DNA of 64,000 bases, taken from NCBI GenBank assembly GCA_030431255.1, contig JAUIJL010000011.1:1-64000 (forward strand). Direction: 5' to 3'. This stretch comes from Thermoanaerobaculia bacterium (lineage in GTDB: Bacteria; Acidobacteriota; Thermoanaerobaculia; Multivoradales; J023). Each line of letters begins with the position of its first letter. Positions within the stretch are counted from its first letter, which is position 1. The position numbers and the translations under genes are program-made. The notes beneath the pieces were generated by a model, which saw nothing but the letters and a program-made list of their open reading frames with translations, did no database searches and was not told the origin of the DNA. This document shows, in pieces, positions 11,915 through 47,705 of this stretch.

Positions 11915-12007
11915 TCGCTCCTCACGAGCCGATGATACCCCAGCAGAGGGTAATAGATTCCACCGCGAGCCCCCCTTCTCCGTTAGAATGCAGCCAAGGA
12001 ATGCTTG

Positions 12008-12937: not shown

Positions 12938-13003
12938 GGTGGAGGCGGTGAGCCGCACTCCTTGAGAATGTCGGGGCGTTGAGCCGCCCCTGCTTGAAAT
13001 TCC

Positions 13004-22132: not shown

Positions 22133-23908
22133 TCAGATGTCGATCGCCAGCTCGCCGAGGCGTCGGTAGAGCGTGGTTCGGCCGATGCCGAGCTCGCCGG
22201 CAGCAGCGCGGACGTTGCCGTCGTGGGACTCCAGCACGTCCGTCAGGATGCGACGTTCCACTTGCTCGAGCCGTGCTTTTAGGGTGCCGGTGTTGGGTAC
22301 CGGCTCTAAGGGCGTCGCCGTGGGGCCGCGCGATCCGGCGATCTCTGCCTGCAAATGTCGAGTCTGCAACAGCTGACCGTCCTCTACGAAGAGGGCGGCG
22401 CGGGTCATCTCTCGCTCCAGTTGGCGGATATTGCCGGGCCACGAGTAGGCTGCCAGGGCGTCGAGGGCCGCCCGGGAGATGCCCTGGGGGCGCCGATGGG
22501 CCTCAGTGGCTGCGCGGGACAGAAAATGAGCGGCCAAGCTCGGTAAATCTGCCGGGCGTCGACGCAGGGGTGGCAACGTCAGGCGACAGTCGGCGATGCG
22601 ATGGAAGAGGTCGAGGCGGAAGGCACCGTCGGCGATCCGCCGGTTGATGTCTTGGTTGGTGGCGGCGATGATCCGAGCTTGGGCCGGCCGAGCGGTTCTA
22701 GCGCCCAGACGATACACCTGTCCCTCCTGCAAGACCCGCAGGATCTTGGCTTGGGTGGGCCGCGACATGTCGCCGATTTCGTCCAAGAACAACGTGCCGC
22801 CGTCCGCCTGCTCGAATTTTCCGGCCCGCGCATCGACACCGGTGGCAACCCCTTTTTCGATACCGAAAAGCTCGGCTTCCAGAAGATCCTCGGGCAAGGC
22901 CGCGCAGTTGATGGCAATCCAGGGGTGCTCCCGCCGCGGAGAGGCGTCGTGGATGTACTTGGCGAGCACTTCCTTGCCGGTTCCGGTCTCGCCTTGAATC
23001 AGCACACTGACGTCGCCTCGGGCGATGCGCGCGGCTTCGTCGAAGAGCCCGAGCATGTCCGGATCCAAGGTCGCGGGCTGAGGCAAAGGGGGTGCGGTCG
23101 CGTTCTCCGGGCTGGAGGGGAGGTCGGCTTCGCTGTGGCCGAGCGCCAGCGCTGCCAACCGGCCCACCAGCTCGAACATGGGCTCAACTCCCTGGGTGTG
23201 CAGCTCTGGAGAGAAGCGTGCCCTAACCACCAGGGATCCGGATTGGATTTCAGACCACTCAGTGGCCGAGTCCGCCCCGGGAGGCTCTGGGTTGGCGTCC
23301 TCTAGAGATGCTTCGAAGAGCAAAGCGGTCTCGGGCCCGTCTAGCCGAAGGATTTCCAGCTGCCGACAAGGGAACGATAGGAACAGGGCTCGACCCGCGG
23401 TATGAGCCACTTGGCCGGCGGCGGATGCTCGTCGCTCGGCCGCGACCTTAAAGTAGCCCTCAAGGCTGGTCACGACCTCGGGCAGTGCGTGGGTCACGAA
23501 TTCCCGCACGGAGCCCACGGAAAGGGTCTCCTGAGGAGCTCCCGCGACCGCTTGTTCGAGGTGTCCGGGCCCGGCGATGTCCAAACGGACGGCCGTCTCG
23601 GTTTCCTCGGGCGCGACCCGTTCCAACACGCAGGCCAAAGAGCCGAATTGCAACGGAGTGTCGGCGTCGACGGGTTCGGCGCCGTGGAGCCGAAGCCCGG
23701 CGATGTAGGTGCCGTTGGACGAGCCGAGGTCCTCAACGCTGACCCTGTCGCCTTGGGTGACCAGCTTTGCGTGTCGACGGGAAACGGTCGGGTGGTCGAG
23801 CAACAGATCGGCCTCGGCGCTGCTGCCCACCACCAGCCCTCCCTCATGGAGGGGATGGGCGATTCTGCGGCCTTCACGGCGCTCCACTAGTGTCCACCGG
23901 TGGCTCAA
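22133..23908 (-). CDS. FHA-domain AAA+ transcription activator with degenerate GAFTGA loop
   Basis: 591 residues. An N-terminal FHA domain (about 5-98) keeps GxxxxS, S43RRH and DLGSSNGTYI. A GAF-like region follows. The AAA+ domain has Walker A GETGTGK (306-312) and Walker B GTLFLDEIGD (371-380). The C-terminus is a Fis-type helix-turn-helix (NVRAAAGELGIGRTTLYRRL). Where sigma54 activators have GAFTGA, this protein has GVATGV (353-358), so contact with sigma54 may be altered or lost. It is co-transcribed with the kinase downstream and diverges from the secreted metalloprotease gene. Confidence 0.9.
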   Translation of the reverse strand: MSHRWTLVERREGRRIAHPLHEGGLVVGSSAEADLLLDHPTVSRRHAKLVTQGDRVSVEDLGSSNGTYIAGLRLHGAEPVDADTPLQFGSLACVLERVAPEETETAVRLDIAGPGHLEQAVAGAPQETLSVGSVREFVTHALPEVVTSLEGYFKVAAERRASAAGQVAHTAGRALFLSFPCRQLEILRLDGPETALLFEASLEDANPEPPGADSATEWSEIQSGSLVVRARFSPELHTQGVEPMFELVGRLAALALGHSEADLPSSPENATAPPLPQPATLDPDMLGLFDEAARIARGDVSVLIQGETGTGKEVLAKYIHDASPRREHPWIAINCAALPEDLLEAELFGIEKGVATGVDARAGKFEQADGGTLFLDEIGDMSRPTQAKILRVLQEGQVYRLGARTARPAQARIIAATNQDINRRIADGAFRLDLFHRIADCRLTLPPLRRRPADLPSLAAHFLSRAATEAHRRPQGISRAALDALAAYSWPGNIRQLEREMTRAALFVEDGQLLQTRHLQAEIAGSRGPTATPLEPVPNTGTLKARLEQVERRILTDVLESHDGNVRAAAGELGIGRTTLYRRLGELAIDI

Positions 23909-32451: not shown

Positions 32452-35400
32452 TCAGGCCATGGATCTTCCGGCCAGCAGACTCTTGGCGATCATGTAGTCG
32501 GCGGTGCCGTGGCCTTGCTCGAATTGCTCCACCACCGAGGTGAGAAGCCGGCGACTGGTGAGCTCGGCGGTGGTGTCTTCATGGAGCTGGAACAGGCTGC
32601 AGGCAGCCCGCAGCTTCCAAGCCAGGGCTCCTTGGCGATCCGCGACTTCTAAGGAGCGCTGTAGAAGCTCGTCGGCCCGTGCTCGGATCTCCGGGTAAGA
32701 ACCCTCGATTTCGACCAAGAGGTTGGCTTGGAGCCGCAGCAGCTCGGCCTCGTACCAGCGGTCGTCGGTTTCTTCGGCCAGCTTGACCCCTTGCTCCAAC
32801 GACTCCATGGCCTTCTCCAAGCGACCCGCGTGGCGTCTGGCATGGGAGAGCATCAGCAGATCGACATTCTGAAGCTGCACCAAACCCAACTGTTGGGCGG
32901 CGACCATCTTCTTCTCCAACACGTCCAGCAGGCTGGCGGCAGCGGCGGGATTGGGCTCGAAGATCACCGAGCGGAGCTGGGGTGCCAGGCTGATGGCATA
33001 GCCGTGCTCCTCGCTGAGGGCGGCGGCCTTCAGATGAAGCTCCTTGGCCCGGGCCGCGTCGCCGCACAATAGGAAGAGGGTGGAGGCGACACTGGAGGCA
33101 TTGAGCTGGCTGAAGGCATGGCCGATCTCGTTGGCGAGCCGGCAGCCTTCCAAGGCCCAGCGTCGAGCGTCGTCGCTGCGGCCCATGTACCATTGATTCA
33201 ACCCACCGAAGACCCTGCCGAAGACCCGACCTTCCACCAAGGGGAAGCTCTGGAAGACCTCGCGCATATTGACCTGGTCGCTCAGCTCTAGGCCGTCTTC
33301 GAAGCAATCTTGCGCCGCCTTGAGGGCACCCTTGCGAAGGTAGGAAGCTCCCAAGGTGACATTGGCCAACAGGCGGGCATAGGGCCCCGCGTCTTCTTGG
33401 CTGAGCACCTGTGCCCGGGCTCGCTCGGCGATTTCGATCGAGGTGGGAATCTCGGCACGCATCCAATGGTAGACCCAGCGTCCGCAACGGACATAGAAGA
33501 GCCGGGGATCTCCGGTGGCTTGGCATTGATCTTCCGCCAACCGAAAAGCTTCACCGCTCTCGGGCTCGCTGTAGCCGCGGGTGGCGAATAGCGCCACGCC
33601 CAGATTTTTGGCCAGACCGATCCTCGTGCTGGTGAGCAGCGGCGAGTCGTCCACCGACTCCAAGAGCTGCTCCGCCCGGCGGATCTGCTCCACGGCCGTG
33701 CCGTAGGCGCCACGGGTCATGGCGATCTCCGCTGCCCGATCGTATTGGGAGACGGCCTTCGCCGGCTGCTCGCCGAGCTCGTAGTGCATGGCCAGGGCAT
33801 GGGCGGGGTGGGCGCCCCGTTTCGGTTGCCACTTTTCGATCGACGAAGCCACCACTCGATGACAGCGCACCGCGTCCTCGGAGCTCAGCCGCTGGCGCAG
33901 CACCCGGCGGTAGATGTTGTGCAAAAAGGCATAGCGCTTGGCCTTGCGTCCGTTGCTCAGGATCGTGCTCGGCAAGTTTCGAACGAAGGCGCGTCGACGG
34001 GCGAGCTGGTCCAGCACCCGCTCGCAATCCGGAATCGGAACCTTGGCCGCGGCCGCGACCACCGGCAGCAGGAAGCGCTCACCGGCAATGCTCGCCACCT
34101 CGAGCAGCCGTTGCTCCTCCTCGCCGGCCCGTTGGAGCAGGCTTTCCAAGATTCGGAAGAGATCCATCGAGAGGAGGTCGTCACCCGGGTCGTCCGGAGT
34201 CTCGTCCTCCAGAATTTGCAGCGAGGTCTCGCGATCCCGCAGCAACACTTCCGCCAAGTGGGCGGAGAAGAGCGGATTGCCGCCGGCGTGTCGATGCACC
34301 AGCTCGGTGATATCCGGGGTGATCTGCCATTCCGAATGCTTCGAGATCAGCATTTGGGTGATCTCGGCCGGCTCGAGGAGCCTCAGAGGTATCTCACGGG
34401 CGAGATCCCGCAGGGTGAGGTCTTCGAGAATCCGTTGCAGACTTTCCGAGGCGGATGCCAGCTCGCTGGTGCGCAGGGTGCAAATCACCAACAACCGAGC
34501 GGATTCGATCCGTCGCGCCAAAGCGGAAAGCAGCTCGAGCGTCGGCGCGTCGGACCAATGGAGATCCTCCAACACCAACACCATGGGCCGACGCCGGCAC
34601 AGGGCGTCGAGGGCTTCGAGCAGCTCCAGCAACCGCCGGGCCGGACCGGCACCGAGGGTGCGGCGGACGATGTCGTCGCGCTCTTCTTCTTCGATGATCC
34701 ACGGCATCTGCATCAACCAGCTGGGTGCCCACTGCAGCAGCACCCGTTTGACCGCGCGGCCGTGGGGGCCGCGACACAGACGCCCGAGGGCTTCGAGCAC
34801 GGGCAGGAAGGCCTCGCCGGAGCCGTGAAATTCGAGGCATCTTCCCTCGGCCAGGGATAGATCGAAGCCGGAGCTTTGCAGACCCTGGGTGAATTTTCTC
34901 ACCAGCGTGGATTTGCCGATGCCGGGCTCACCGCTGATGAAAAACATCTGGCGGTTGCCCTCGAGAGCGCGGGACCAAGCCGCGCTCAGAATGTCGAGCT
35001 CGTTACCCCGTCCGGGCAGTGGCATCTGCGGAGCCGGCAGCTTTCCTTCCTTGAGCGTGAGGTCCTGAAGATCGCTGCTGACCAAACCGGTTTCAGAATC
35101 GGTGATCGAAGGGCTGCTCTGCATCAGCGGCCCGGAATCCTCGTCCGAGAAAAGCCGCAGCAATCGTTTGAGGCTTTTCGCCACCTCCGGGGCCTGTTGG
35201 GGGCGTAGGGCGGGATCCTTCTCCAACAGGTGGTCCAGGGTTTTCGACAGCTCCATGGGCAAATCGGTGCGCAGCCGATGGACCGGGGTCGGGTAGTGGG
35301 AGCAAATCTGTTGCAGGGTTTCGGCCACACCCTTGCCCCGGAACGGAGAATTTCCGGTGCACAGCTCATAGAGCAGAACGCCGAGGGAGAAGAGATCCGA

Positions 35401-36045
35401 GCGGCCGTCCAGCTTTTGACCCTTGGCTTGCTCCGGAGACATGGCGCGCAGGGTGCCCAGCACCTGGCCGACCTCGGCTTCGTCCTCGACCACGCTGTCG
35501 CCGTCGGGTAGGCGGAAACGTTTGGCCAACCCGAAGTCGAGAAGCTTCACCCGGCTCTCGGTGGTGATCATGACGTTTTCGGCTTTGAGATCTCGATGCA
35601 CGATGCCCTGTTGATGGGCGACGCTCAGGGCTTCGGCGATTTGGCAGCCGATCTCGAGAATCTCGGAGACGGTGAAGGCTTTTTCCCGCTGCAAGGCGCG
35701 CAAGGGGGCGCCCTCCACCAGCTCCATGACGATGAAGTCGCCTTCGTCCAGCTCCAAGAAATCGTAGATTTGCACGATCGCGGGATGGTTGAGCCGCGCC
35801 GCCAAACGGGCTTCTTGACGGAATCTTTGCCGGTGAGCCTCGTCCTCGATGGCGTCCTCATGGATCGCCTTGATCGCCACATCCCGTTCGAGGGTCTGGT
35901 GATGGGCGCGATAGACCTCGCCCATGCCCCCTCGGCCCAGACGCTCACCGAGTTGGTAAGAGCCCAGCTTGGGGGGCAGTCTTTCAGGTGGAGGGGCTTT
36001 TCTCTGTATGTCCACAATCGTCGGCGTAGGAGCGTAAACAGTCAC
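32452..36045 (-). CDS. PknK-like Ser/Thr kinase fused to AAA ATPase and TPR region
   Basis: 1197 residues. The kinase domain (about 30-300) has GRGGMGEVYRAH, Lys59, HRD at 150-152 and DFG at 170-172. A P-loop ATPase domain begins near residue 342 (PLPGRGNEL) with Walker A GEPGIGKST (372-380) and a later LVLEDLHWSD Walker B, as in MalT/PknK-type STAND ATPases. The last 450 residues are TPR-like helices. No membrane helix is seen, so it should be cytosolic. A GTG start at 36045 is used because no better start precedes the kinase fold. It follows the sigma54 activator gene by 75 bp and probably senses the signal for that activator. Confidence 0.9.
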   Translation of the reverse strand: MTVYAPTPTIVDIQRKAPPPERLPPKLGSYQLGERLGRGGMGEVYRAHHQTLERDVAIKAIHEDAIEDEAHRQRFRQEARLAARLNHPAIVQIYDFLELDEGDFIVMELVEGAPLRALQREKAFTVSEILEIGCQIAEALSVAHQQGIVHRDLKAENVMITTESRVKLLDFGLAKRFRLPDGDSVVEDEAEVGQVLGTLRAMSPEQAKGQKLDGRSDLFSLGVLLYELCTGNSPFRGKGVAETLQQICSHYPTPVHRLRTDLPMELSKTLDHLLEKDPALRPQQAPEVAKSLKRLLRLFSDEDSGPLMQSSPSITDSETGLVSSDLQDLTLKEGKLPAPQMPLPGRGNELDILSAAWSRALEGNRQMFFISGEPGIGKSTLVRKFTQGLQSSGFDLSLAEGRCLEFHGSGEAFLPVLEALGRLCRGPHGRAVKRVLLQWAPSWLMQMPWIIEEEERDDIVRRTLGAGPARRLLELLEALDALCRRRPMVLVLEDLHWSDAPTLELLSALARRIESARLLVICTLRTSELASASESLQRILEDLTLRDLAREIPLRLLEPAEITQMLISKHSEWQITPDITELVHRHAGGNPLFSAHLAEVLLRDRETSLQILEDETPDDPGDDLLSMDLFRILESLLQRAGEEEQRLLEVASIAGERFLLPVVAAAAKVPIPDCERVLDQLARRRAFVRNLPSTILSNGRKAKRYAFLHNIYRRVLRQRLSSEDAVRCHRVVASSIEKWQPKRGAHPAHALAMHYELGEQPAKAVSQYDRAAEIAMTRGAYGTAVEQIRRAEQLLESVDDSPLLTSTRIGLAKNLGVALFATRGYSEPESGEAFRLAEDQCQATGDPRLFYVRCGRWVYHWMRAEIPTSIEIAERARAQVLSQEDAGPYARLLANVTLGASYLRKGALKAAQDCFEDGLELSDQVNMREVFQSFPLVEGRVFGRVFGGLNQWYMGRSDDARRWALEGCRLANEIGHAFSQLNASSVASTLFLLCGDAARAKELHLKAAALSEEHGYAISLAPQLRSVIFEPNPAAAASLLDVLEKKMVAAQQLGLVQLQNVDLLMLSHARRHAGRLEKAMESLEQGVKLAEETDDRWYEAELLRLQANLLVEIEGSYPEIRARADELLQRSLEVADRQGALAWKLRAACSLFQLHEDTTAELTSRRLLTSVVEQFEQGHGTADYMIAKSLLAGRSMA

Positions 36046-36120
36046 AACTCACATCACTTCCAGTTTCGGTCGTGATCCTTGGACTCTCCGGGAGCTCGAA
36101 TCCCGAGAACCAGCTTCTCA

Positions 36121-37800
36121 TCACATCAGACCGAGCTGTCGCAAGCGTTGGTTCAATCCCTTGACCGACACCCGCAAAGCACCGGCCATCGATTCGCGAT
36201 CACCGCCGTGGAGGTCGAGCGCCGCGACGAGCTCGTCGCGAGTCAGCTGGCTCGGCTTCCGAATGCGGGTCGACTTGTCGACCAGACGGTAGAGCGCGGT
36301 TCGAGAGATTCCCAAGGCGTGAGCCGTTGGCTGAAAGAGCCATTGATTGGCGGCGAGGGCCTCTAAGAGCTCGTCTTCGTTGATCTCGGACGCCGGCCGA
36401 AACTTGGCCTTAGTCGAAGCCTTGACCGGCATTGAGCCGAGAGCACCGCCGGTGGACCGGCGGCGGTTTTGCCGAGGCAGATCGAACGACGAAACCGGCT
36501 CTTCCGCTAAAGGCTGATCACTTTGATCAGCCAGTCCCCGATCGCTGTCCAACAGTTGTTGGGCCCGCCGAAGAACCTCTTTAGGTCGCGCATCACGAGC
36601 AGTAATAAGCAATTGTCGTACCACATTGCGGAGCTCGCGGACATTTCCCGGCCATGGATGCACGGCCAAGAGGGAAACGATCGACGCCCTGAGCCAGGGA
36701 CGGACCGAGGAAATAGGCACGTCCGGGGCCACCGGCTCCCCCATATCCTCCAGACCTTGGCGGATGAAGTGAAAAAGCAGCAGGCCGATGTCGTCCAGGC
36801 GGGCGCGCAAGGGCGGCAAGAAAATGCCGAAGCCGCTCAAACGGTGGAGCAGCGGGGCCCTGAACCGACCGTCGGCAATGTGGCGCTCCAAGTCCGCGTC
36901 GGTGGCGGCGACCAGCCTGACATCCACCACTTTGGGCGTGGCGTGGCCCACCCCTTGGATCTCGCCTGTTTCCAGGGCCCGCAGCAGCAGAGGTTGGATT
37001 TCCAGGGGGGTCTCACCGATCTCGTCGAGAAATAAAGTGCCCTTGTGGGCACGTCCAAAATGACCTTCCCGGGCCGATACCGCCCCGGTGAAAGCGCCCT
37101 TGGCAGAGCCGAAAAGCTCGCTGGCGGCGAGGCTGGCGGGCACCGCCGCGAGGTTGACCGACACCATCGGGCCGTTCCGGCGCAAGCCGCTGTGGTGCAG
37201 CGCCCGGGCCACCACCTCTTTGCCGGTGCCCGTTTCGCCCCGCAGCAGCACGGGAACGTCCAACGACGCCACCCGATCGATATCCCGCCGCAATTGGATC
37301 ATGGCCTCGCTTTGGCCGACCAATCCGAAGGATTCGTCGGATCGCTCGGGCACCGGATCCCGCAAATGCAGCAGCAGGACGATCGAGTTGGCGAGCTGGA
37401 TCACCACGCCTTTATCTAGCTCGTCCATGGTTAGGAGGCGGCGGTCGGAGACCGGTACATTGCCGAGGCTGACCGGGGTTGAGGTCTTTTCGCAGTCCAG
37501 CTCGATGCCGTAGCTCTTCAGCTTGAGGGACAGCGGTGTGCGGCTGAGGTGTGGGTCCGCCAGGGGCTGCCGAGAGCGACCGGGGCCGCCGAAATGTGGC
37601 TCCAGGCGTGAGATCTTGACTTCCTCGCCGGATACCAACGCCGTGAGGACCGCCACCTCGCCCACGCGGCGGTGGTCGTCGTGAAAGAGGATCGTCAACC
37701 ACGGAACGGATAGTTGAGTCCAGGAGCTGGAGAGGATGCGTTGGGGGCGGGTGTCGGCGGCTAGGTCGCCCCAGCGATCATCGATTTTTGACTGCCTCAC
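36121..37800 (-). CDS. sigma54-dependent activator with intact GAFTGA
   Basis: 559 residues, GTG start at 37800. Residues 30-150 look like a diverged FHA domain (ISRLEPHFGG ... SLGNVPVSDRRLL). The AAA+ domain has Walker A GETGTGK (188-194), GAFTGA (235-240) and LFLDE (256-260). The C-terminus carries a Fis-like helix-turn-helix (AHALGISRTALYRLV) followed by a second helix-turn-helix-like unit (SMAGALRVSVKGLNQRLRQL). It is encoded upstream of the PknK-like kinase and diverges from an operon with a sigma54-type promoter, which is its most likely target. Confidence 0.93.
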   Translation of the reverse strand: MRQSKIDDRWGDLAADTRPQRILSSSWTQLSVPWLTILFHDDHRRVGEVAVLTALVSGEEVKISRLEPHFGGPGRSRQPLADPHLSRTPLSLKLKSYGIELDCEKTSTPVSLGNVPVSDRRLLTMDELDKGVVIQLANSIVLLLHLRDPVPERSDESFGLVGQSEAMIQLRRDIDRVASLDVPVLLRGETGTGKEVVARALHHSGLRRNGPMVSVNLAAVPASLAASELFGSAKGAFTGAVSAREGHFGRAHKGTLFLDEIGETPLEIQPLLLRALETGEIQGVGHATPKVVDVRLVAATDADLERHIADGRFRAPLLHRLSGFGIFLPPLRARLDDIGLLLFHFIRQGLEDMGEPVAPDVPISSVRPWLRASIVSLLAVHPWPGNVRELRNVVRQLLITARDARPKEVLRRAQQLLDSDRGLADQSDQPLAEEPVSSFDLPRQNRRRSTGGALGSMPVKASTKAKFRPASEINEDELLEALAANQWLFQPTAHALGISRTALYRLVDKSTRIRKPSQLTRDELVAALDLHGGDRESMAGALRVSVKGLNQRLRQLGLM

Positions 37801-37866
37801 GATGACGGCATTCTACTCGATGTGTCGGAGCGAAAACTGGAGCGCAGCCCGTGATTCGGCAAAAGC

Positions 37867-37886
37867 GGACATGTCCGGACATGTCC
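37867..37886. promoter_or_regulatory. two tandem 10-bp palindromes, candidate activator binding site
   Basis: GGACATGTCC occurs twice back to back (37867-37876, 37877-37886). It is 67 bp upstream of the activator's own start codon and about 190 bp upstream of the sigma54-type promoter on the other strand. That is the usual place for an enhancer-binding site. Confidence 0.6.
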
Positions 37887-38075
37887 GGCGACCGTCCGCG
37901 GACACTTGGGGAGCTCGAGAAATCCGTTGGGGATTGCTCGGAGGTGGGGTCAGTCGTGTGGGGTGCCCGGTTTCGGGATCCAACGCAGGCGCTCGCTGTT
38001 TGAGCACGTTGTTGGTTACGTATGACTTTCGCGCACTATTCGTTTCAAAGTCCTATTCCTTTTTGTCGTCTTTTC

Positions 38076-38091
38076 TGGCATCGTAATTGCT
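38076..38091 (+). promoter_or_regulatory. sigma54-type (-24/-12) promoter
   Basis: TGGCAT-N5-TTGCT has GG and GC separated by exactly 10 bp and differs from the consensus TGGCAC-N5-TTGCA at two positions. It points toward the GMC-hydrolase gene, whose start is 268 bp downstream. The rest of 37801-38358 is non-coding apart from the palindromes noted. Confidence 0.7.
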
Positions 38092-38358
38092 AAATCTGTC
38101 TGCCACGCACCGTACCTGTTGGAGGGATCCCGGAAGGGAGCCCGTCGGTCACCGTGTCGTATTGTGTCGAATCGGCGTTAGCGCGCTGTTTGCGGCGCGG
38201 CGGCGACTGTGCGCAGAAGCCGGCCACGGGCTTCCTTCCAACACTCCGTTTCCAGCCACCAGCCATACGGCGGTGTGGGGTTGATTTGTGTGTGCTCGCC
38301 TCGACCTCGAATGCAGCGGAACCCATGTGCTCCGCTCGTGCCCCCAAGGAGACGGTCC

Positions 38359-41300
38359 ATGAATGCGCGTCTGTCCTCACCCATTGAATCCATGAAAGAA
38401 CACTATGGTGCCGTGGTCATCGGTTCCGGATATGGGGGCGGTATCGCCGCTTCCCGTCTCGCAAGAGCCGGTCAGGCCGTGTGTTTGCTGGAGCGCGGAC
38501 GGGAGATTCGCCCCGGGGAATATCCGGATACCGAGGTCGAGGGCGCCGAGGAGATGCAGATGCACCTGCCCGACGGCCACGTGGGCAAAGCCACCGGCAT
38601 GTTCGACTTCCACGTTCAGGAAGACATCAACGTGCTCGTGGGTTGTGGCTTGGGCGGCACGTCGCTGATCAATGCCAACGTCGCCCTCAAGGCGGTGGAA
38701 GGGGTGTGGGACGACGAGCGCTGGCCGACCGTGCTGCGCGGAGGGCACACGGATTTGGAGGAATACTATCGGCGCGCCACCACCATGCTCGGCTCCAACC
38801 CCTATCCCGACGACTTTCCTACCCTGCCCAAGCTGGAGGCTCACCGGAAGTCCGCGGAAGGTTTGGGCATGGAAGATGTGTTTTATAAGCCGCCGATCAA
38901 TGTGACGTTTGAGGATCGGACGAACTCCGCGGGTGTGGTGCAAAAAAAGTGCATCAATTGCGGTGATTGTGTCGCCGGTTGCAACCATTGGGCAAAGAAT
39001 ACGACCCTCATGAACTATTTGCCGGATGCTTGGAATCACGGTGCCGAGATCTTCACCGAATGCTCGGTGAAGTATCTGGAACGCCGGGACGACAAGTGGG
39101 TCATCCATTTTGAGGTCGTCGGCCAGGGTCGGCAGAAATTCGACGCCCCCGAGCTCTTCGTCACCGCGGACATCGTGGTGGTTTCCGCGGGCACCCTCGG
39201 CTCGACCGAAATCATGTTGCGGTCCAAGGAGAAGGGGCTGGCGATTTCCGATCGAGTCGGCAAGCACTTCTCCGGCAACGGCGATGTCCTCGGTTTTGCC
39301 TACAACACCGACACCCACATCAACGGCATCGGCTTCGGCACCCACACGGACGGCTCCGTGGATCCCGTGGGCCCGTGTATCACCAGCATCATCGACCACC
39401 GCAACACCCCGAAGTGGCAAGACGGCTTTGTGATCGAGGAAGGCTCGATTCCGGGCATGGTCGGGCCGGCGGTGCCGCCGGTCTTTGCGGTCGCCGCCGG
39501 CGCGGTGGGCAAAGATACGGACCACGGCTTCTTCGATTGGTTGCAGGAAAAAGGCCGAGCCGCCGAGAGCCTCATTCGCGGTCCGTACCACGGGGCGATC
39601 AACAACACCCAGACCTATTTGGTGATGTCCCACGACGGCAGCGAAGGTGACATCGAGCTCCAGGACAACGATCGCATCAAGCTCTCTTGGCCGGGGGTGG
39701 GCAAGGAGCCCATCTTCCAGACCGTCAACGACACCTTGGAAGACGCCACCAAACCCCTGGGCGGGGTCTATCTCAAGAATCCGATTTGGAGCGACGCCTT
39801 CGACAAGAGCTTGATCTCCGTCCATCCTTTGGGTGGCTGCGTCATGGCGGACGACGCGTCCGAGGGCGTGACCAATCACAAAGGACAGGTCTACTCCGGT
39901 GCCGCGGGAACCGACGTGCACGACGGCCTGTACGTCACCGACGGCTCGATCGTGCCCTTGAGCCTGGGAGTCAACCCGCTGTTGACCATTTCTGCTCTCT
40001 CGGAACGGGTGCTCGATTTGATGGCCAAGGATCGGGGATGGAGCCTCGATGTGGAGACGCCGTCCGAGCCCCGCGAGACGGCGCCCGTAGAAAAGGAAGG
40101 CGTGCTCGGTATTCAATTCACCGAGACCATGAAGGGTTATTTCTCGACCGAGGAGAAAGAGGACTTCCAGGCCGGCTACGACCAAGGCAAAGACTCGGGC
40201 TCGGCCATGGAATTCACGCTCACCATTCAAGGTGACGATCTCGACGAGCTGATCAACACCAAGGAGCACGAGGCGGAAATGTTCGGCACCGTCAAGTGCC
40301 GGGCGTTGTCCGAAGACGCCATGACCGTCACCGGCGGCAGCTTCAACCTATTCGTCGATAATCCGAATCAGGTCGAAACCAAAAATATGGTGTATCGCAT
40401 GGTGATGCACTCCGAGGAGGGCAAGGATTACTACTTCCACGGATACAAGATCGTGCACACCGCCTCGATCCTGGCGGCTTGGCCCCAGACCACGACCCTC
40501 TACGTGACCGTCTACGACGGCGAAAACGATCAAGGGCCGGTGGTCGGCAAGGGCATCCTGCATATCGAGCCTTTGGATTTCGCCAAGCAGATGACCACGA
40601 TGAAGGTCATCGGCGCCCATAGTGCCAAGGAGAGCATCGAAGGCTTAGCCCGTTTCGGCACCTACTTTGCCGGGGTGCTCTTCGAAGCCTACGGCGGCAT
40701 CTTGGTGCCCGAGAAATACTTCGATCCCGACGCCGAGCCGCGCAAAAAGCGTCCGTTGCGGGTGGGCGCGCCGGAAGTTCATCACTTCGAAACCAGCGAT
40801 GGGGTCACCCTGCGGCTGACCCGCTACAGAGGCGGCGACAAGGGGCCCGTGCTCATGGTGCACGGCGCCGGGGTGTCGAGCTTGATCTTCTCCACGGACC
40901 TGATCGACACCAACCTTCTGGAATACCTTTACGCCCACGGCTACGACGTGTGGCTCTTCGACTTCCGCATCTCGATCGCCCTGCCGGCTTCCGAGGACCA
41001 ATCCAACGGCGACCAAATCGCGAGCATCGACCATCCCGAGGCGGTGGACTACGTCCGCAACGCCACCGGCGTGGAGTCGATCCAAGCGGTGGTCCACTGC
41101 TACGGCTCCAACACCTTCTTTATGGCGTTGCTGGCGGGCATGGAAGGGGTGCACAGTGTGGTGTGCTCCCAGGTGGCGACCAACTTGCTGTGCCCGATCG
41201 ACGTCAAGCTCAAGTCGGGCCTGCATTTGCCGTCGGTCTTGGATCTCTTCGGCGTCGATTCCTTGACCGCGTATGTGGATAAAAACTCCAATTGGAAATC

Positions 41301-41790
41301 CAAGCTCTTCGACGAGCTCTTAGAGCTCTACCCGATGCGCAAAGGGCAGCACAACGAGAGCCCGGTCAGCCATCGCATCACCTTCATGTACGGCCAGCTC
41401 TACTCCTTGGAGCAGCTGGACCAGCGGACCTTCGACAACCTGCATGAGCTCTTCGGGGTGAGCAACATCACCACCTTCGAGCATCTGGCGCTGATGGTGC
41501 GGGAGAAGCAGGTCATGGACCACGAGGGCAACGATGTCTACATGCCCCATCTCGATCGCCTCGCCATGCCCATGTGCTTCATTTCGGGTGAGGACAACAA
41601 GACCTACCTGCCCAAGAGCACCAAGGCGACCTTGGACGCCGTGATCGCGGCCAACGGTGAGGATCTTTACACGCGGCACGTGATTCCGGACTACGGTCAT
41701 ATCGACTGCATTTTCGGCAAGAACGCGGTCGACGACGTCTATCCGCACATCTTGGCCCATCTCGAAAAAACCCTGAAACCGTCCACCTGA
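38359..41790 (+). CDS. GMC-family (cholesterol-oxidase-like) oxidoreductase fused to alpha/beta-hydrolase
   Basis: 1143 residues from ATG 38359 (AAGGAG upstream). The N-terminal FAD domain has GSGYGGG (22-28) and a GMC signature (INVLVGCGLGGTSLINANVA). A four-cysteine motif CINCGDCVAGC (198-208) is followed by the HPLGGCVMADD active-site block (His489). The closest relatives by pattern are ChoD-type cholesterol oxidases, which share the cysteine motif. A middle domain (about 590-790) is not recognised. The C-terminal part is an alpha/beta-hydrolase (VLMVHGAGVSSLIF) whose nucleophile elbow reads VHCYGSN, placing Cys914 where Ser is usual, with His1114 in DYGHID. No signal peptide is seen. It is the first gene of a three-gene operon. 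Confidence 0.88.
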   Translation: MNARLSSPIESMKEHYGAVVIGSGYGGGIAASRLARAGQAVCLLERGREIRPGEYPDTEVEGAEEMQMHLPDGHVGKATGMFDFHVQEDINVLVGCGLGGTSLINANVALKAVEGVWDDERWPTVLRGGHTDLEEYYRRATTMLGSNPYPDDFPTLPKLEAHRKSAEGLGMEDVFYKPPINVTFEDRTNSAGVVQKKCINCGDCVAGCNHWAKNTTLMNYLPDAWNHGAEIFTECSVKYLERRDDKWVIHFEVVGQGRQKFDAPELFVTADIVVVSAGTLGSTEIMLRSKEKGLAISDRVGKHFSGNGDVLGFAYNTDTHINGIGFGTHTDGSVDPVGPCITSIIDHRNTPKWQDGFVIEEGSIPGMVGPAVPPVFAVAAGAVGKDTDHGFFDWLQEKGRAAESLIRGPYHGAINNTQTYLVMSHDGSEGDIELQDNDRIKLSWPGVGKEPIFQTVNDTLEDATKPLGGVYLKNPIWSDAFDKSLISVHPLGGCVMADDASEGVTNHKGQVYSGAAGTDVHDGLYVTDGSIVPLSLGVNPLLTISALSERVLDLMAKDRGWSLDVETPSEPRETAPVEKEGVLGIQFTETMKGYFSTEEKEDFQAGYDQGKDSGSAMEFTLTIQGDDLDELINTKEHEAEMFGTVKCRALSEDAMTVTGGSFNLFVDNPNQVETKNMVYRMVMHSEEGKDYYFHGYKIVHTASILAAWPQTTTLYVTVYDGENDQGPVVGKGILHIEPLDFAKQMTTMKVIGAHSAKESIEGLARFGTYFAGVLFEAYGGILVPEKYFDPDAEPRKKRPLRVGAPEVHHFETSDGVTLRLTRYRGGDKGPVLMVHGAGVSSLIFSTDLIDTNLLEYLYAHGYDVWLFDFRISIALPASEDQSNGDQIASIDHPEAVDYVRNATGVESIQAVVHCYGSNTFFMALLAGMEGVHSVVCSQVATNLLCPIDVKLKSGLHLPSVLDLFGVDSLTAYVDKNSNWKSKLFDELLELYPMRKGQHNESPVSHRITFMYGQLYSLEQLDQRTFDNLHELFGVSNITTFEHLALMVREKQVMDHEGNDVYMPHLDRLAMPMCFISGEDNKTYLPKSTKATLDAVIAANGEDLYTRHVIPDYGHIDCIFGKNAVDDVYPHILAHLEKTLKPST

Positions 41791-41800
41791 GGAGAACGCT

Positions 41801-44146
41801 ATGAATGCTTGGCTCACATGGTTCAGCCGTTTGACGTGGATTGGTGCGGCGGCAAATCTCGGTTTTATTCTGCCCGCGATCTTCGCCCCCGATGTGCTCG
41901 AGGCCCTGCTCGGCCCGGGCTCCACGGAATTCGCCATCTATTGGGTGCCGTGGGCGGGCTTCCTGCTCTTATCCGCCACGCTGCTTTATCTGCCGGCGGC
42001 GAAAGACCCCCTCGGCCTGCACGTCTACGCATGGCTTTCGGTGATCGGTCGCGGCATGGCGGCCACCTATTGGTTGTGGTCCAACTCCCGGTGGGACCTG
42101 CCGGGCATGATCCAGACCTTCTGGATCCTCGACGGCTCGTTCTGTGTCATCTTCCTGGTGCTTTTGCAGATGGGCATGCCGGCGGAGCTGAAGATCTCGC
42201 CGGCGAATTTGGCGCGAGCGGTGGCGAGCTGGGGCAAGGCCATGACCGCCCTATTCTCGCCGCCTGAGGGTGAATCCAACGGCTCCTTGCGAGCCTTCGG
42301 CATCATCACTTGGTTGGCGGTAGTGGCCAATCTCGGCTTTGCCCTGCCGGCTTTGCTCAACCCCGAGGCGACCCAGGCGATGTACCAAGGGGTGACCGCC
42401 AAATGGGCCTATCTGTGGCTCGGTAATTGCGGCTTCCTTTTGATCCAGCTGGGCTTCTACTTCATGCCGGCGGGGGCCTATCCGAAACGCTATCGGATCT
42501 TCGCTTGGTCGTCGGTGGTGTTCTGGCTCGCCAGCTCTGTCTTCTGGTTCTGGCTGAATCAGACATGGAGCCCCGATTCGCTGCTGAGCAAATTCTGGAT
42601 CTTCGACGGCGCCCTCGGCATCATCCTGTTGGTGCTTTTGCACCGTGGCATGCCGCCCGAATATCAGATCAGCGCCGCCGGGCTCAAAGAGCTCATCGTC
42701 GGGGGTATTCAGCGCTGTCTCAAAGCCCTGATGACCCCGGCCCATCTGGCGCTGTTGGCTTTGGTCTTGGTCGCCGGTGTGGTGATCGCTAAGAACGTGC
42801 ATGGCCATCTATTGGACATCAAACCGGATCCGATCTTCGACGACCCAGCGGAGCAATTCAAATACGGCGCCATCGGCTTGGCGGTCGAGGCACGGGTGCC
42901 CCTCTATTTGTGGGAGGTATTGCCGGATCTTTGTGGCGACACCTTGCCCGATCCGGACAAGGGGATGGCGTCACTGGGTTTGATCTACGAGGACGGCAAG
43001 GATCTCCCGATCGGCTTCGCCTTGCGGGATCTGGGATATCCCACGGTCGAGCCCAATTGCTCTCTCTGCCATACCGCCAACTACCGGACGGAGGAAGGCG
43101 CGCCCCAGCAAATCGCCCTCGGTGGATCGGCCCACATGCTCGATCTCCAGGCGTTCCAATGGTTCCTCTACGATTGCGCGGATTCGCCTCAATTCACCGC
43201 CAAAAACGTAGTGGCGAAGATCAACGAGAAGCGAAATTTGGGAGCCATTGAGAGCTTCCTCTATCGCTGGGTGATCATCCCCACCGCCAAGACGGGTCTC
43301 GATACCCAGCGCAAGGCCTATTCGTGGCAGAAGTCTCGTCCCGACCAAGGCCGCGGCCGAACCGACACCTTCAACCCCACCAAGATCACCGTGCTCAACC
43401 TGCCCGACGATGGCACCATCGGCACGGTGGATTTGCCGGCGATTTGGAATCAGCGTGCCCGCGAAGGCATGTGGCTCCATTGGGACGGCAACAACGACGC
43501 GATCAAGGAACGCAATTACGCCGCGGCCATGGCCGTGGGTGCGACCCCCGACTCGGTGCTGCCCGATCACTTCAAAATCGTCACCGACTTCGTGCTCGAT
43601 CTTCCACCCGCTTCGTATCCGTACGACATCGATCAGGAGAAAGCGGCCCGAGGTGGCATCATCTACAACGCCCAATGCGCGGATTGTCACGCGTTCGGTA
43701 GCCAGAAAATCGGCACCGTCACCGACATCGCCGAGATCGGCACCGATTCCCATCGTCTCAACTCGTTCACCAAAGAGCTGGTGGAGGCCCTGCACTCGGT
43801 GCACGAGGGTCTGTTCCAATTCGACGCCTACCGCAAAACCGAGGGTTACGCCAACGTGCCGATCGACGGCATCTGGGTGCGCGCCCCCTACCTGCACAAC
43901 GGCTCCGCGCCCACCCTGTGGGATCTGCTGCAAAAACCCGAGGATCGACCCAAATCTTTCTACCGGGGATACGAGGTCTTCGATCCCGTGCATGTGGGAT
44001 TCGTGCACCAGGGCCCCGAGGTGGAGAAGGTGGGTTGGTTGCAGGATTCGTCAGTCGCCGGTAACGGCAACGGTGGCCACCTCTACGGCACCGACTTGAC
44101 CGACGAAGAGAAGTGGGACTTGATCGAATTTCTTAAGACCCTCTAG
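41801..44146 (+). CDS. membrane-anchored di-haem cytochrome (RoxA/MauG-like)
   Basis: 781 residues; AGGAG overlaps the stop of the previous gene and lies 6 bp before ATG 41801. The first 340 residues form about eight membrane helices in two similar halves, each starting with a W-x-A-x-x-A/V-N-L-G-F pattern. A soluble domain follows with haem motifs CSLCH (420-424) and CADCH (626-630) and the blocks IWNQRAREGMWLHWDGNN and GIWVRAPYLHNGSAPTLWDL. These resemble di-haem proteins related to MauG, cytochrome c peroxidases and rubber oxygenases. It could take electrons from, or oxidise the product of, the GMC enzyme. The fusion of an eight-helix anchor to this domain is unusual. Confidence 0.83.
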   Translation: MNAWLTWFSRLTWIGAAANLGFILPAIFAPDVLEALLGPGSTEFAIYWVPWAGFLLLSATLLYLPAAKDPLGLHVYAWLSVIGRGMAATYWLWSNSRWDLPGMIQTFWILDGSFCVIFLVLLQMGMPAELKISPANLARAVASWGKAMTALFSPPEGESNGSLRAFGIITWLAVVANLGFALPALLNPEATQAMYQGVTAKWAYLWLGNCGFLLIQLGFYFMPAGAYPKRYRIFAWSSVVFWLASSVFWFWLNQTWSPDSLLSKFWIFDGALGIILLVLLHRGMPPEYQISAAGLKELIVGGIQRCLKALMTPAHLALLALVLVAGVVIAKNVHGHLLDIKPDPIFDDPAEQFKYGAIGLAVEARVPLYLWEVLPDLCGDTLPDPDKGMASLGLIYEDGKDLPIGFALRDLGYPTVEPNCSLCHTANYRTEEGAPQQIALGGSAHMLDLQAFQWFLYDCADSPQFTAKNVVAKINEKRNLGAIESFLYRWVIIPTAKTGLDTQRKAYSWQKSRPDQGRGRTDTFNPTKITVLNLPDDGTIGTVDLPAIWNQRAREGMWLHWDGNNDAIKERNYAAAMAVGATPDSVLPDHFKIVTDFVLDLPPASYPYDIDQEKAARGGIIYNAQCADCHAFGSQKIGTVTDIAEIGTDSHRLNSFTKELVEALHSVHEGLFQFDAYRKTEGYANVPIDGIWVRAPYLHNGSAPTLWDLLQKPEDRPKSFYRGYEVFDPVHVGFVHQGPEVEKVGWLQDSSVAGNGNGGHLYGTDLTDEEKWDLIEFLKTL

Positions 44147-44159
44147 GGAGAGGTGGATT

Positions 44160-45605
44160 GTGAGTCGAATCAATACCTTTAGGCACCCTCTCCATTCGCT
44201 TTTTCAGAGCATGGTGGAGGAGGTGGCCAACAAAATAGAGGATCGGGTGGGCAAGATGACCGCCAACCAACCCGACGCCCCTCGATTGGACGAGAACCAT
44301 CCGGCCACGGCCGTGGCTCACGCGATTTCCCGGCATAAAAGCAAGGGAAAGGAGGTGCCGGATCAACCGCCCGCGGAGCTTTCCGCCAAGCACGGTGGGG
44401 TGGTCGATACCTTGTGGACGTGCGCCAAGCTTGCCGGGGAATATATGGAAGCGAAATTCCTCGGCAACGACAAAAAGGCCGCCGAGAAGAAGGACGAGCT
44501 CAAATTCAACACCTGTGATCCGGAGTGGCTGGAAGCGGTGATGCAATATGAAGAGTACTTCGGCCTGTCCGGGGATCGGCGAGACATTCCTTATGTCCGT
44601 TGGCAAAACCTGGACGACTTCGTGATGGAGACCCTGCCGGCCGACGCCAAGGTCGCCCTGCTGGGCGATTGGGGCACCGGCACGGACGAGGCCATCGCTT
44701 TGCTCAAGGCGGTTAAGAAGCACGAGCCCGACGTGATCATCCACTTGGGAGACGTCTACTATTCCGGCACTGAGAACGAGACCCACAAATTCTTTCTCGA
44801 CATCTTGAACGATGTGCTGGAGCGGGACAAAAATCCCATTCCCGTCTACAACATGACCGGCAATCACGACATGTACAGCGGCGGTGCGGGTTTCTACAAG
44901 CTTCTGCCGCAGACCAATCCACCGCCGTTGTTCAACGAAGAGCAGGCGCAAAAAGCCAGCTACTTCTGTTTGCGCAGCGTTGACGGAGCCTGGCAATTCC
45001 TGGCCATGGACACGGGCTTGCACGACCATGATCCGTTCACGGTCTCTACCGACATCACCTACTTGGAGGACTCGGAGGTGGAGTGGCACGTGGACAAGAT
45101 CCGTCGGCACAGCCAAGCCGGGGGTCGAACCATCCTGCTCAGCCACCATCAGCTCTTTTCCGCCTTCGATGCCATCGGCAAAGGGGTGGAAAAACCGGCC
45201 GGGCAAGAAGCCGCCAACCCGAAATTGCTCGAGAGCTTCCGTCAATTTCAAGAGGCGGCGGAGGGTCCGGGAGATATCGCGGCGTGGTTCTGGGGTCACG
45301 AGCACAACCTGGACATCTACGAGCCCTACCTGGGCTTAGCGAAAGGGCGGTGCATGGGTCACGCGGCGGTTCCCCATTTCAAGGAAGACAATCCGTATCA
45401 GGTCTTAGACGGCATCCCGGATCCGCCCCAATTGGTGGACGACCCGGCGCTTCCGGGGGAGAAGCTCAAGCTCGGCACGGTCGATGAGATTTATGCCCAC
45501 GGTTTCGCCATCATCAAGCTCGATGATCGAGACCAGACCGCCACCGTCGGCTACTTCCAAGAGACCAATGCCTATGCCTCGCCCATGTACGAGGAGAAGC
45601 TCTGA
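44160..45605 (+). CDS. metallophosphoesterase
   Basis: 481 residues with a GTG start preceded by GGAGAGG. The calcineurin-like motifs are clear: VALLGDWGTGTDEA, IHLGDVYYSGTENE, YNMTGNHDMYSGG, ILLSHHQLFSAF and WFWGHEHNLDIYE. There is no obvious signal peptide, and residues 1-150 form an extra helical domain. It is the third gene of the operon, 13 bp after the di-haem gene, and is followed by a strong terminator. The substrate is unknown; a phosphorylated intermediate of the same pathway is possible. Confidence 0.87.
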   Translation: MSRINTFRHPLHSLFQSMVEEVANKIEDRVGKMTANQPDAPRLDENHPATAVAHAISRHKSKGKEVPDQPPAELSAKHGGVVDTLWTCAKLAGEYMEAKFLGNDKKAAEKKDELKFNTCDPEWLEAVMQYEEYFGLSGDRRDIPYVRWQNLDDFVMETLPADAKVALLGDWGTGTDEAIALLKAVKKHEPDVIIHLGDVYYSGTENETHKFFLDILNDVLERDKNPIPVYNMTGNHDMYSGGAGFYKLLPQTNPPPLFNEEQAQKASYFCLRSVDGAWQFLAMDTGLHDHDPFTVSTDITYLEDSEVEWHVDKIRRHSQAGGRTILLSHHQLFSAFDAIGKGVEKPAGQEAANPKLLESFRQFQEAAEGPGDIAAWFWGHEHNLDIYEPYLGLAKGRCMGHAAVPHFKEDNPYQVLDGIPDPPQLVDDPALPGEKLKLGTVDEIYAHGFAIIKLDDRDQTATVGYFQETNAYASPMYEEKL

Positions 45606-45651
45606 TCTGAATTCAAGCCTTGATCGTCATCGACCGATGCTTTGCATACCC

Positions 45652-45683
45652 GCCGGCGAGACCTGCTCGCCGGCACTTTTTTT
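45652..45683 (+). terminator. rho-independent terminator of the GMC operon
   Basis: A 9-bp perfect stem GCCGGCGAG/CTCGCCGGC with loop ACCTG, then AC and seven T residues. It lies 47 bp after the metallophosphoesterase stop. Confidence 0.93.
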
Positions 45684-45890
45684 GGAGGGCGGGATTGGCA
45701 GGGGAGGTGTTGAGTAGGCAGGTTCGCAACCCCGCGGCAAATGTTCTAAGATCGGCCTATTCCGATGGATCTCTTGATCTTGTTGTTCGTCCCCCGACGC
45801 TCTTCTCCACTCAACCTTCTGCCGGGTGCCGGCCGTCGTCTGCTGGGCAGCTTGCCCGCGGGCAGCCGGTTGTGATCGCCGGTAGTGACC

Positions 45891-47705
45891 ATGGGGACTT
45901 CAGTCTTGCAGCAATCTCTCTCCTCTACAGCTAAAGCTTCCACGGGACGGCGCGTCGGCTTGGCCGTGCTGGCGGGTCTGCTCGCCCTCTTCGGTGTTTG
46001 GGTGAGCCTCGCGGGACCGTTTACGACCAACGGCACCCAACCGGGTCTGGCCTTCTCGCTGTTGCCCCCCAGCAACTGCCAGGGGTGCCACGGTGATTAT
46101 GATTTCGCCGAGAATGTGGAGCCCTATCCCACTTGGTCGGGCTCGATGATGGCGAATTCCACTCGCGATCCATTGTTTTGGGCCGCCCTCGACGTGGCCA
46201 ATAACGATGTGGCCGGAATCGGCGACTGGTGCTTGCGTTGCCACGCGCCCAAGGCTTGGTTTTCCGGACGTTCCGAGCCGCCCGGCGGCACCGAGGACGG
46301 TTGCTCACTGGTCGGAAATTTGGACGCCCGCGACAACGATTTCACCGGTGTGAATTGCCATCAATGTCATCGCATGATGGTCAACGACAACCCGCCCAAA
46401 GGGCAGGAGTCGGTGTATTTCGAGAACGGCAATATGTGGCTCGACGACGCGGTGTGTGCCAGCGGCGGCGGCTCCGAGCCTTGTCGCCGAGGCCCCTACA
46501 ACTACACGGCAAATATGGAGAACCCGCCACCCCATCCCTGGGCTTTCTCCGATTACCACGTCAGCTCCGATGTTTGCGGTAATTGCCACAACGTCACCAG
46601 CCCAGTCCACAATCTGGTGGACGAGAGCGGTCAAGATACGGGCGTTCCTTTCCCCATCGAACGCACCTTCAAGGAGTGGCAGCAAAGCGACTTCGGACCC
46701 GGTGGAGCGTCTGAGCAGTCTTGTTTGGATTGCCACATGCAGCAAACCGAGGCCTCACCGGTATTCGCATGTCTCCAGCAGTCGAATGATCGCTCGGGCA
46801 ATTTGGCCATCCACCAATTCGCCGGCGCCAACACTTGGATCCCCCAAGTGCTCAAGGGTGAGTATCCGAATCTGAGCCGGGAAGACGCCTTTGACGCCAC
46901 CACGGCTTGGGCTCTCGACATGCTGCAAAACCGCTCGGCAACAGTGGAGGTCACGACCCTGACGGAGGCGGAATCCGGCGGCACCATGGAGGTGGAGGTC
47001 AAAGTCACCAACCTGACCGGCCACAAGCTGCCCACCGGTTATCCCGAAGGGCGGCGCATGTGGTTGAACGTCCGTGCGGTCGACGGAGCCGACAACCTGC
47101 TGTGGGAAAGCGGTGCCTATGATGCCGCGACCGGCGTGCTCACCGAGGACGCGCAGATCAAGATCTACCGCTCGGAGCCGGGCATCTACAACGAGAACGG
47201 CACCGGTGAGTGCGACATTCTCGACGGCGACGGGGATCATATCTTCCACTTCGTGCGCAACAACTGCTACGCCATCGACAACCGAATTCCGCCCCTGGGC
47301 TTCACCGGTGGGTCCGACCTCGAAACCGAGCCCAAGAATTACACCTATCCGGAGACCTCACCGGGCTCGGGAATTCTGGTGAATTACGACATCACCCCGT
47401 ACAGCATCCCGATTCCTTTGGATGCGGTTACCCCGGTGACCGTCACCGCTACCCTCAACTTCCAAATCGCCAGCAATCACTACGTGGAATTCTTGTTGGA
47501 TCAAAGCAATGAGAATTCTTTCCCTAATGATTGCTTGCCTCGGACTACGGGCATGCCGACCATGACCCGAGCGGAAATCCTCTACGATATGTGGGAGCGA
47601 TACGGTCGCGCGGCGCCCGTGGATATGGATGCGGGCAACGTGCAAGCCCAGACGACCGTGCTCTTTGCCGATGGCTTCGAGTCCGGTGATACGTCGTCTT
47701 GGTGA
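45891..47705 (+). CDS. secreted pentahaem cytochrome c with C-terminal FESGDT tag
   Basis: 604 residues from ATG 45891 (a GTG at 45885 is an alternative). An N-terminal anchor or signal (VGLAVLAGLLALFGVWVSLAG) precedes five CxxCH sites: CQGCH (63-67), CLRCH (114-118), CHQCH (156-160), CGNCH (229-233) and CLDCH (278-282). A beta-rich domain follows, including a NLTGHKLPTGYPEGRRMW block. The protein ends [14 protein letters not shown], the tail shared with the M36 protease and CSLREA protein. The gene lies downstream of the terminator of the GMC operon and therefore needs its own promoter. A role as a periplasmic or surface electron carrier is inferred. Confidence 0.87.
   Translation: MGTSVLQQSLSSTAKASTGRRVGLAVLAGLLALFGVWVSLAGPFTTNGTQPGLAFSLLPPSNCQGCHGDYDFAENVEPYPTWSGSMMANSTRDPLFWAALDVANNDVAGIGDWCLRCHAPKAWFSGRSEPPGGTEDGCSLVGNLDARDNDFTGVNCHQCHRMMVNDNPPKGQESVYFENGNMWLDDAVCASGGGSEPCRRGPYNYTANMENPPPHPWAFSDYHVSSDVCGNCHNVTSPVHNLVDESGQDTGVPFPIERTFKEWQQSDFGPGGASEQSCLDCHMQQTEASPVFACLQQSNDRSGNLAIHQFAGANTWIPQVLKGEYPNLSREDAFDATTAWALDMLQNRSATVEVTTLTEAESGGTMEVEVKVTNLTGHKLPTGYPEGRRMWLNVRAVDGADNLLWESGAYDAATGVLTEDAQIKIYRSEPGIYNENGTGECDILDGDGDHIFHFVRNNCYAIDNRIPPLGFTGGSDLETEPKNYTYPETSPGSGILVNYDITPYSIPIPLDAVTPVTVTATLNFQIASNHYVEFLLDQSNENSFPNDCLPRTTGMPTMTRAEILYDMWERYGRAAPVDMDAGNVQAQTTVLFADGFESGDTSSW

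Follow-up and report, generated by a model that had tools for sequence, protein, structure and literature searches.

Does a block of regulatory and oxidative genes standing side by side form one dedicated system, or have its parts been brought together in a single lineage? The question is raised by a locus within the window analysed here, a stretch of 64,000 nucleotides (contig JAUIJL010000011.1, positions 1 to 64,000) from a Thermoanaerobaculia bacterium of the phylum Acidobacteriota. The locus comprises (i) a PknK-like Ser/Thr kinase, (ii) a sigma54 activator (enhancer-binding protein, EBP), and (iii) a divergent operon encoding a fusion of GMC oxidoreductase, barrel and alpha/beta-hydrolase domains, a membrane di-haem cytochrome and a metallophosphoesterase. 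A preliminary description of this DNA took all these parts together for a single undescribed system, which is not supported, since the three-gene cassette occurs in relatives without this control and the control is one of 19 copies placed beside unrelated genes. On balance, we favour the reading that the host lineage has brought the cassette under one of its kinase/activator switches, a family that has expanded in that lineage.

The three-gene cassette and its fusion protein

The relatives compared were G018, G031 (of the same order as the host), G032, and named loci from other bacteria; genes were located with tblastn and a codon-trained caller. The fusion, cytochrome and phosphoesterase genes are consecutive and in the same order in G018 and G031, while in G032 the fusion gene is followed by the cytochrome gene, the contig stops a short way beyond, and no phosphoesterase gene was seen. 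Of the 80 named loci of the fusion gene, 66 continue for more than 4 kb beyond it and have all three genes in order, the carriers being mostly Pseudomonas and also Chromobacterium, Pokkaliibacter, one member of Ignavibacteria and one of Bryobacterales (Acidobacteriota); because of the preponderance of Pseudomonas, these 66 loci are far from 66 independent observations. Lack of co-conservation of the three genes had been named beforehand as a possible refutation, and co-conservation was found. The conserved order across unrelated bacteria indicates that the cassette is a real functional unit, whose spread is independent of the control found here. The arrangement varies in some groups: in the loci of Terriglobia and in Azospirillum the phosphoesterase gene lies upstream of the fusion gene, and Sorangium, Chloroflexi, Gemmatimonadota, Leptospira, Bernardetia and others carry the fusion without the cytochrome and the phosphoesterase. 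In one locus of Terriglobia (L138:6529-9924) a second GMC protein of 1131 amino acids, in which Pfam sees GMC domains only, is encoded directly 5' of the fusion. Our literature searches found no paper that describes or names the cassette. It sits in many cultured soil- and plant-associated strains of Pseudomonas and in Chromobacterium, and its substrate should therefore be findable by simple deletions in such laboratory-friendly bacteria.

The fusion gene starts at about position 38359, where a ribosome-binding site (AAGGAGA) is present and the orthologues begin; the mechanical open reading frame start at 38209 is too early. Only with this false upstream start does the GMC protein seem to have a signal peptide or a Tat motif, and both were rejected. 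The preliminary description of a GMC-hydrolase fusion was confirmed by profile match, but a third domain between the two had been missed. The GMC part is closest to cholesterol oxidases, and shares with the GMC-type enzymes (NF058674; PDB 3cnj and 4u2l) the fold binding flavin adenine dinucleotide (FAD) as well as conserved HPLGG and NP motifs, whereas it differs from them in its fusion to barrel and hydrolase-fold domains and in having no apparent signal peptide. It scores 158.5 bits against NF058674, for which the curated cut-off is 850, and may work as a GMC oxidase, though not classified as a cholesterol oxidase. The middle domain (approximately 210 amino acids) is a predicted eight-stranded barrel plus helix, with no match in Pfam and no confident fold relative (best Z 8.8, Foldseek E 0.08). 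The third domain has an alpha/beta-hydrolase fold and resembles lysosomal acid lipase/cholesteryl ester hydrolase (PDB 6v7n), with which it shares a YGHxD-type His motif, but carries Cys where the lipase has Ser in the nucleophile elbow. This elbow is HCYG here and HCxG in all loci scored, in place of the GxSxG of serine hydrolases. The motif suggests a Cys in the nucleophile role and leaves room for acyl transfer; simple hydrolysis, as proposed earlier, is for the same reason doubtful. The fusion is annotated as "alpha/beta fold hydrolase" or "GMC oxidoreductase".

The Cys elbow also bears on the possibility that the fusion is mainly biosynthetic, its Cys domain transferring acyl groups as in PHA synthases and the cassette making or tailoring a lipid or secondary metabolite. 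We regard this as rather unlikely: a Cys is present in the HCxG elbow throughout and the barrel could hold a hydrophobic ligand (a weak argument), but no match to a PHA-synthase family was obtained in Pfam and the best solved-structure match of the domain is the acid lipase.

The kinase, the activator and the divergent promoter

The kinase combines a Ser/Thr kinase domain (Pkinase, 174 bits) with an AAA_16/STAND ATPase domain (87 bits), both over the cut-off, and a TPR-like region in which TPR_2 and TPR_8 fall just under the cut-off of Pfam, which is the composition of PknK-like proteins; its VAIK, HRDLK and DFG motifs are intact. The activator is encoded on the same strand, with 75 bp between the two genes, and contains a sigma54 interaction domain (PF00158, 194 bits) with GAFTGA and Walker A motifs. 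Profile matches and motifs thus uphold the earlier identification of both proteins, but their genes lie at 32452-37800 and not, as had been stated, within 37801-47705.

Pfam gave no match on the N-terminal region of the activator, for which AlphaFold2 predicts an FHA fold (mean pLDDT 86.9, approximately 97 in the core). Its top solved-structure matches in Foldseek are FHA domains, including GarA, OdhI, DgcB and EmbR; structural comparison gave a VIA Z of 13.5 against 5a8i (root-mean-square deviation 3.0, 110 aligned residues) and Z values of about 12 against GarA, OdhI and DgcB. Arg65, Ser86 and Arg87, at the positions of the usual Arg and Ser-Arg motifs of FHA domains, are invariant in 26 sequences. 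The predicted FHA fold would provide a physical basis for the link to the kinase. FHA-domain sigma54 enhancer-binding proteins are already known in Myxococcus xanthus (Jelsbak et al., 2005, PNAS 102:3010, as cited in PMC12288465 and PMC6971385). The activator described here shares with them the FHA, AAA+ (GAFTGA) and Fis-type helix-turn-helix (HTH) domains, and likewise belongs to a large genome with many paralogues and expected Ser/Thr kinase partners. It differs in its origin from Acidobacteriota, in an FHA domain too divergent for Pfam, in its frequent position beside a PknK-like kinase and in an extra HTH-like C-terminal unit.

Between the activator and the fusion gene, a tandem perfect palindrome and a third dyad are followed by a -24/-12 promoter (Table 1). 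The palindrome CGGACATGTCCGGACATGTCCG has one match in the window against 0.01 expected, its 20-base core is the sole match at up to 3 mismatches in the genome (10.2 Mb), and 6 half-sites are present at the locus against 0.5 expected. Within the window, TGGCAYN5TTGCW is matched exactly at one place, the promoter TGGCATCGTAATTGCT, and when the 450 bp that precede the activator were shuffled 300 times, no shuffle reached its score. Genome-wide, this pattern occurs 40 times, compared with 10 for the reversed control pattern, so that the majority of such matches in the host genome are beyond chance. With its GG-N10-GC spacing, an enhancer-like site upstream and a single copy of rpoN in the genome, the site has the sequence features of a sigma54 promoter. 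The palindromes and the spaced promoter of the preliminary description are therefore borne out, and so is the coherence of the operon, with a divergent sigma54 promoter of its own beside the kinase/activator pair. With the gene beginning at about 38359 rather than 38209, the leader between this promoter and the fusion start codon (38092-38358) is about 260 nt, which is unusually long.

Table 1. Features of the locus (positions within the window) and small genes at paralogous loci.
Feature	Position	Strand	Characteristics
PknK-like Ser/Thr kinase	32452..36045	-	Pkinase 30-283, AAA_16/STAND ATPase 342-521, TPR-like C-terminus
Sigma54 activator (EBP)	36121..37800	-	Predicted FHA ~31-149, AAA+ 160-325 with GAFTGA, Fis-type HTH 476-505, further HTH-like tail
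Tandem perfect palindrome, probable enhancer	37866..37887	.	CGGACATGTCCGGACATGTCCG (GGACATGTCC x2); sequence search
Third dyad	~37894-37903		GTCCGCGGAC; beside tandem palindrome
-24/-12 promoter	38076..38091	+	TGGCATCGTAATTGCT (GG-N10-GC); matrix score and pattern match
GMC/barrel/alpha-beta-hydrolase fusion	38359..41790	+	GMC ~1-560, barrel ~575-785, hydrolase fold ~805-1143
Membrane di-haem cytochrome	41801..44146	+	Duplicated four-helix membrane domain and RoxA/CytoC_perox-like domain, CSLCH and CADCH
Calcineurin-like metallophosphoesterase	44160..45605	+	Signal peptide not apparent
Intrinsic terminator-like hairpin	45652..45674	+	9 pairs (8 GC) and T run; ends operon
Pentahaem c-type cytochrome	45885..47705	+	Five CxxCH, N-terminal membrane anchor
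Small genes between kinase and FHA activator	L222:8560-9204, L223:8075-9064, L224:10197-11274, L225:8807-9412, L230:10084-10689, L233:8678-9472		No Pfam match; opposite orientation

Control in relatives and in the paralogous switches

The control was sought at 19 loci looked at one by one (G018, G031 and 17 other relatives) and at 52 loci in bulk; -24/-12 sites were scored by matrix. No site above chance was found upstream of the fusion gene at the 19 loci, no locus of the 52 had an upstream score in the range of that in the window, and no kinase-activator pair precedes the operon at any of the 19 or of the 52. As the control is absent in the scanned relatives, the combination appears to be a recruitment in the host lineage.

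The Ser/Thr kinases encoded by the host genome number at least 150 and its sigma54 activators about 69, of which 19 are paralogous FHA-EBPs. For 12 of these 19, compared with 10 of 50 activators outside the family, a kinase lies within 4.5 kb (Fisher p 0.0012), and the kinase-FHA activator pair recurs in related genomes. A strong -24/-12 site (score 15 or more, within 450 bp upstream of the activator) directed at the divergent gene was found for seven of the 19, and none of the 19 has a strong site directed at the activator itself. These data support a recurring unit of kinase, FHA activator and putative divergent sigma54 promoter. The divergent genes vary, from the oxidation operon here to giant Kelch-repeat proteins or small proteins without a Pfam match elsewhere. 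A palindrome common to all paralogues was also considered and rejected, with half-sites enriched only here and at the paralogue L223.

Another reading is that the kinase and activator serve other targets, the -24/-12 match and the adjacency being incidental and the operon using another promoter. Such neighbours would be common among so many kinases and activators, and the arrangement is not conserved. We nevertheless consider this unlikely, given a well-placed promoter unequalled in the shuffles, a tandem palindrome unique in the genome, and a divergent layout repeated at six other paralogues. Regulation of the operon by the adjoining switch is, to judge from these sequence features, likely.

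Kelch-repeat proteins of 2046 and 2174 amino acids are encoded divergently to FHA-EBP paralogues at L227:10220-16360 and L239:10279-16803, the former behind a near-perfect -24/-12 site, TGGCATGCGGCTTGCT. At six loci, small genes stand between the kinase and the FHA activator (Table 1), and may be what the switch usually controls. With its 19 copies, the family lends itself to studying how Ser/Thr kinase-FHA-sigma54 circuits that run in parallel stay specific.

The cytochromes, the phosphoesterase and a possible pathway

The eight helices and haem motifs of the cytochrome, as first described, were found again, and the helices proved to be a duplicated four-helix unit (halves 36% identical), present as a single copy in the relatives compared outside the host's order. 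A transmembrane haem b in this domain was rejected, as it has no conserved His. The protein scores 171.2 bits against the di-haem CytoC_perox family NF040606 (cut-off 150), carries two CxxCH motifs, and resembles RoxA; membership in the RoxA rubber dioxygenases (NF050033) was rejected at 65 bits against a cut-off of 1000, and the cut-offs for RoxA, RoxB and RoxC are not reached. It shares two c-type haems, the RoxA-like domain and the CytoC_perox family with RoxA and with the fatty-acid di-haem peroxidases FadCcp (PA2077/PA2078), likewise related to the RoxA group (PMC4496055), but is distinguished from these by its four- or eight-helix membrane anchor and its place in a gene order with the GMC fusion and the phosphoesterase. 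Other genomes of the host's order hold clusters with up to four RoxA-like di-haem cytochromes (L070, L074 and L075), the first also with GMC oxidoreductases.

The metallophosphoesterase of the operon was confirmed by profile match. The earlier pentahaem cytochrome is likewise present, with its five CxxCH motifs, but a terminator-like hairpin precedes its gene, which is therefore placed outside the operon and is probably a separate, loosely associated transcription unit; hairpins in the whole region are no more numerous than in shuffles, and the terminator call rests on the quality of this one hairpin. Pseudomonas-type cassettes have no counterpart of the pentahaem gene. In G018, a 6-haem relative of the protein (24% identity) is encoded 3' of the operon, which is flanked by genes for 8-, 4- and 6-haem c-type cytochromes (L066:3009-4703, L066:6979-7695 and L067:25-3348).

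In the mechanism that we propose, the STAND/TPR part of the kinase would sense a ligand or partner, and the kinase would phosphorylate a threonine; the activator has a disordered N-terminal tail that may carry this residue. The predicted FHA domain would bind the phosphothreonine as in GarA, OdhI or DgcB, and the activator would assemble on the palindromes (37866-37903) and remodel sigma54 polymerase at the -24/-12 site. The fusion, a putatively cytoplasmic protein composed of a cholesterol-oxidase-type FAD enzyme, a ligand-sized barrel and a Cys-nucleophile hydrolase fold, may oxidise some hydrophobic alcohol or sterol-like molecule and also split off or pass on an acyl group. The cytochrome may act as a membrane-anchored periplasmic oxygenase or peroxidase of the RoxA/CytoC_perox type on a lipid-like substrate or peroxide, and the third product as a phosphoesterase; the substrate of the cassette is probably lipid-like. 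A more far-reaching reading, which we consider less likely than not, is that the cassette constitutes a widespread but so far unrecognised pathway that modifies lipids or sterol-like compounds, with a Cys-nucleophile oxidase-acyltransferase containing a new barrel at its centre, and that Acidobacteriota possess a large family of paired kinases and FHA activators, in which every switch has a palindrome of its own connecting it to a divergent sigma54 promoter. Neither the enzyme families nor FHA activators are new in themselves; new are the three-gene set, the Cys in the nucleophile elbow, the barrel and how large the switch family is.

Several observations weigh against the proposed recruitment and mechanism. 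The closest orthologues have neither the palindrome nor the promoter in front of the gene, so that no phylogenetic footprint links activator and operon. Only seven of the 19 FHA-EBPs have a strong divergent promoter, five have no kinase within 10 kb, and half-site enrichment is clear only at the locus and at L223. The tail-threonine motif of the activator (p 0.0065) was chosen post hoc. The three operon proteins belong to different compartments, and a single linear pathway is thus not established.

Haems of the c type are attached in the periplasm, while inspection of the sequences by eye revealed no signal peptide on the GMC protein or the metallophosphoesterase; an electron path from FAD to the c-type haems, as put forward in the preliminary description, is therefore unsupported. 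A distinct kinase-controlled redox chain from the FAD enzyme through the di-haem to the pentahaem cytochrome, with which c-type cytochromes adjoining GMC genes in several relatives and the multihaem genes around the G018 operon would agree, is very improbable in view of these missing signal peptides, a membrane domain without a conserved His for haem b, a pentahaem gene behind a terminator and absent from Pseudomonas-type cassettes, and a control that is not conserved.

The window further encodes another Ser/Thr kinase (9245-13075) and another sigma54 activator (22133-23908), both on the minus strand.

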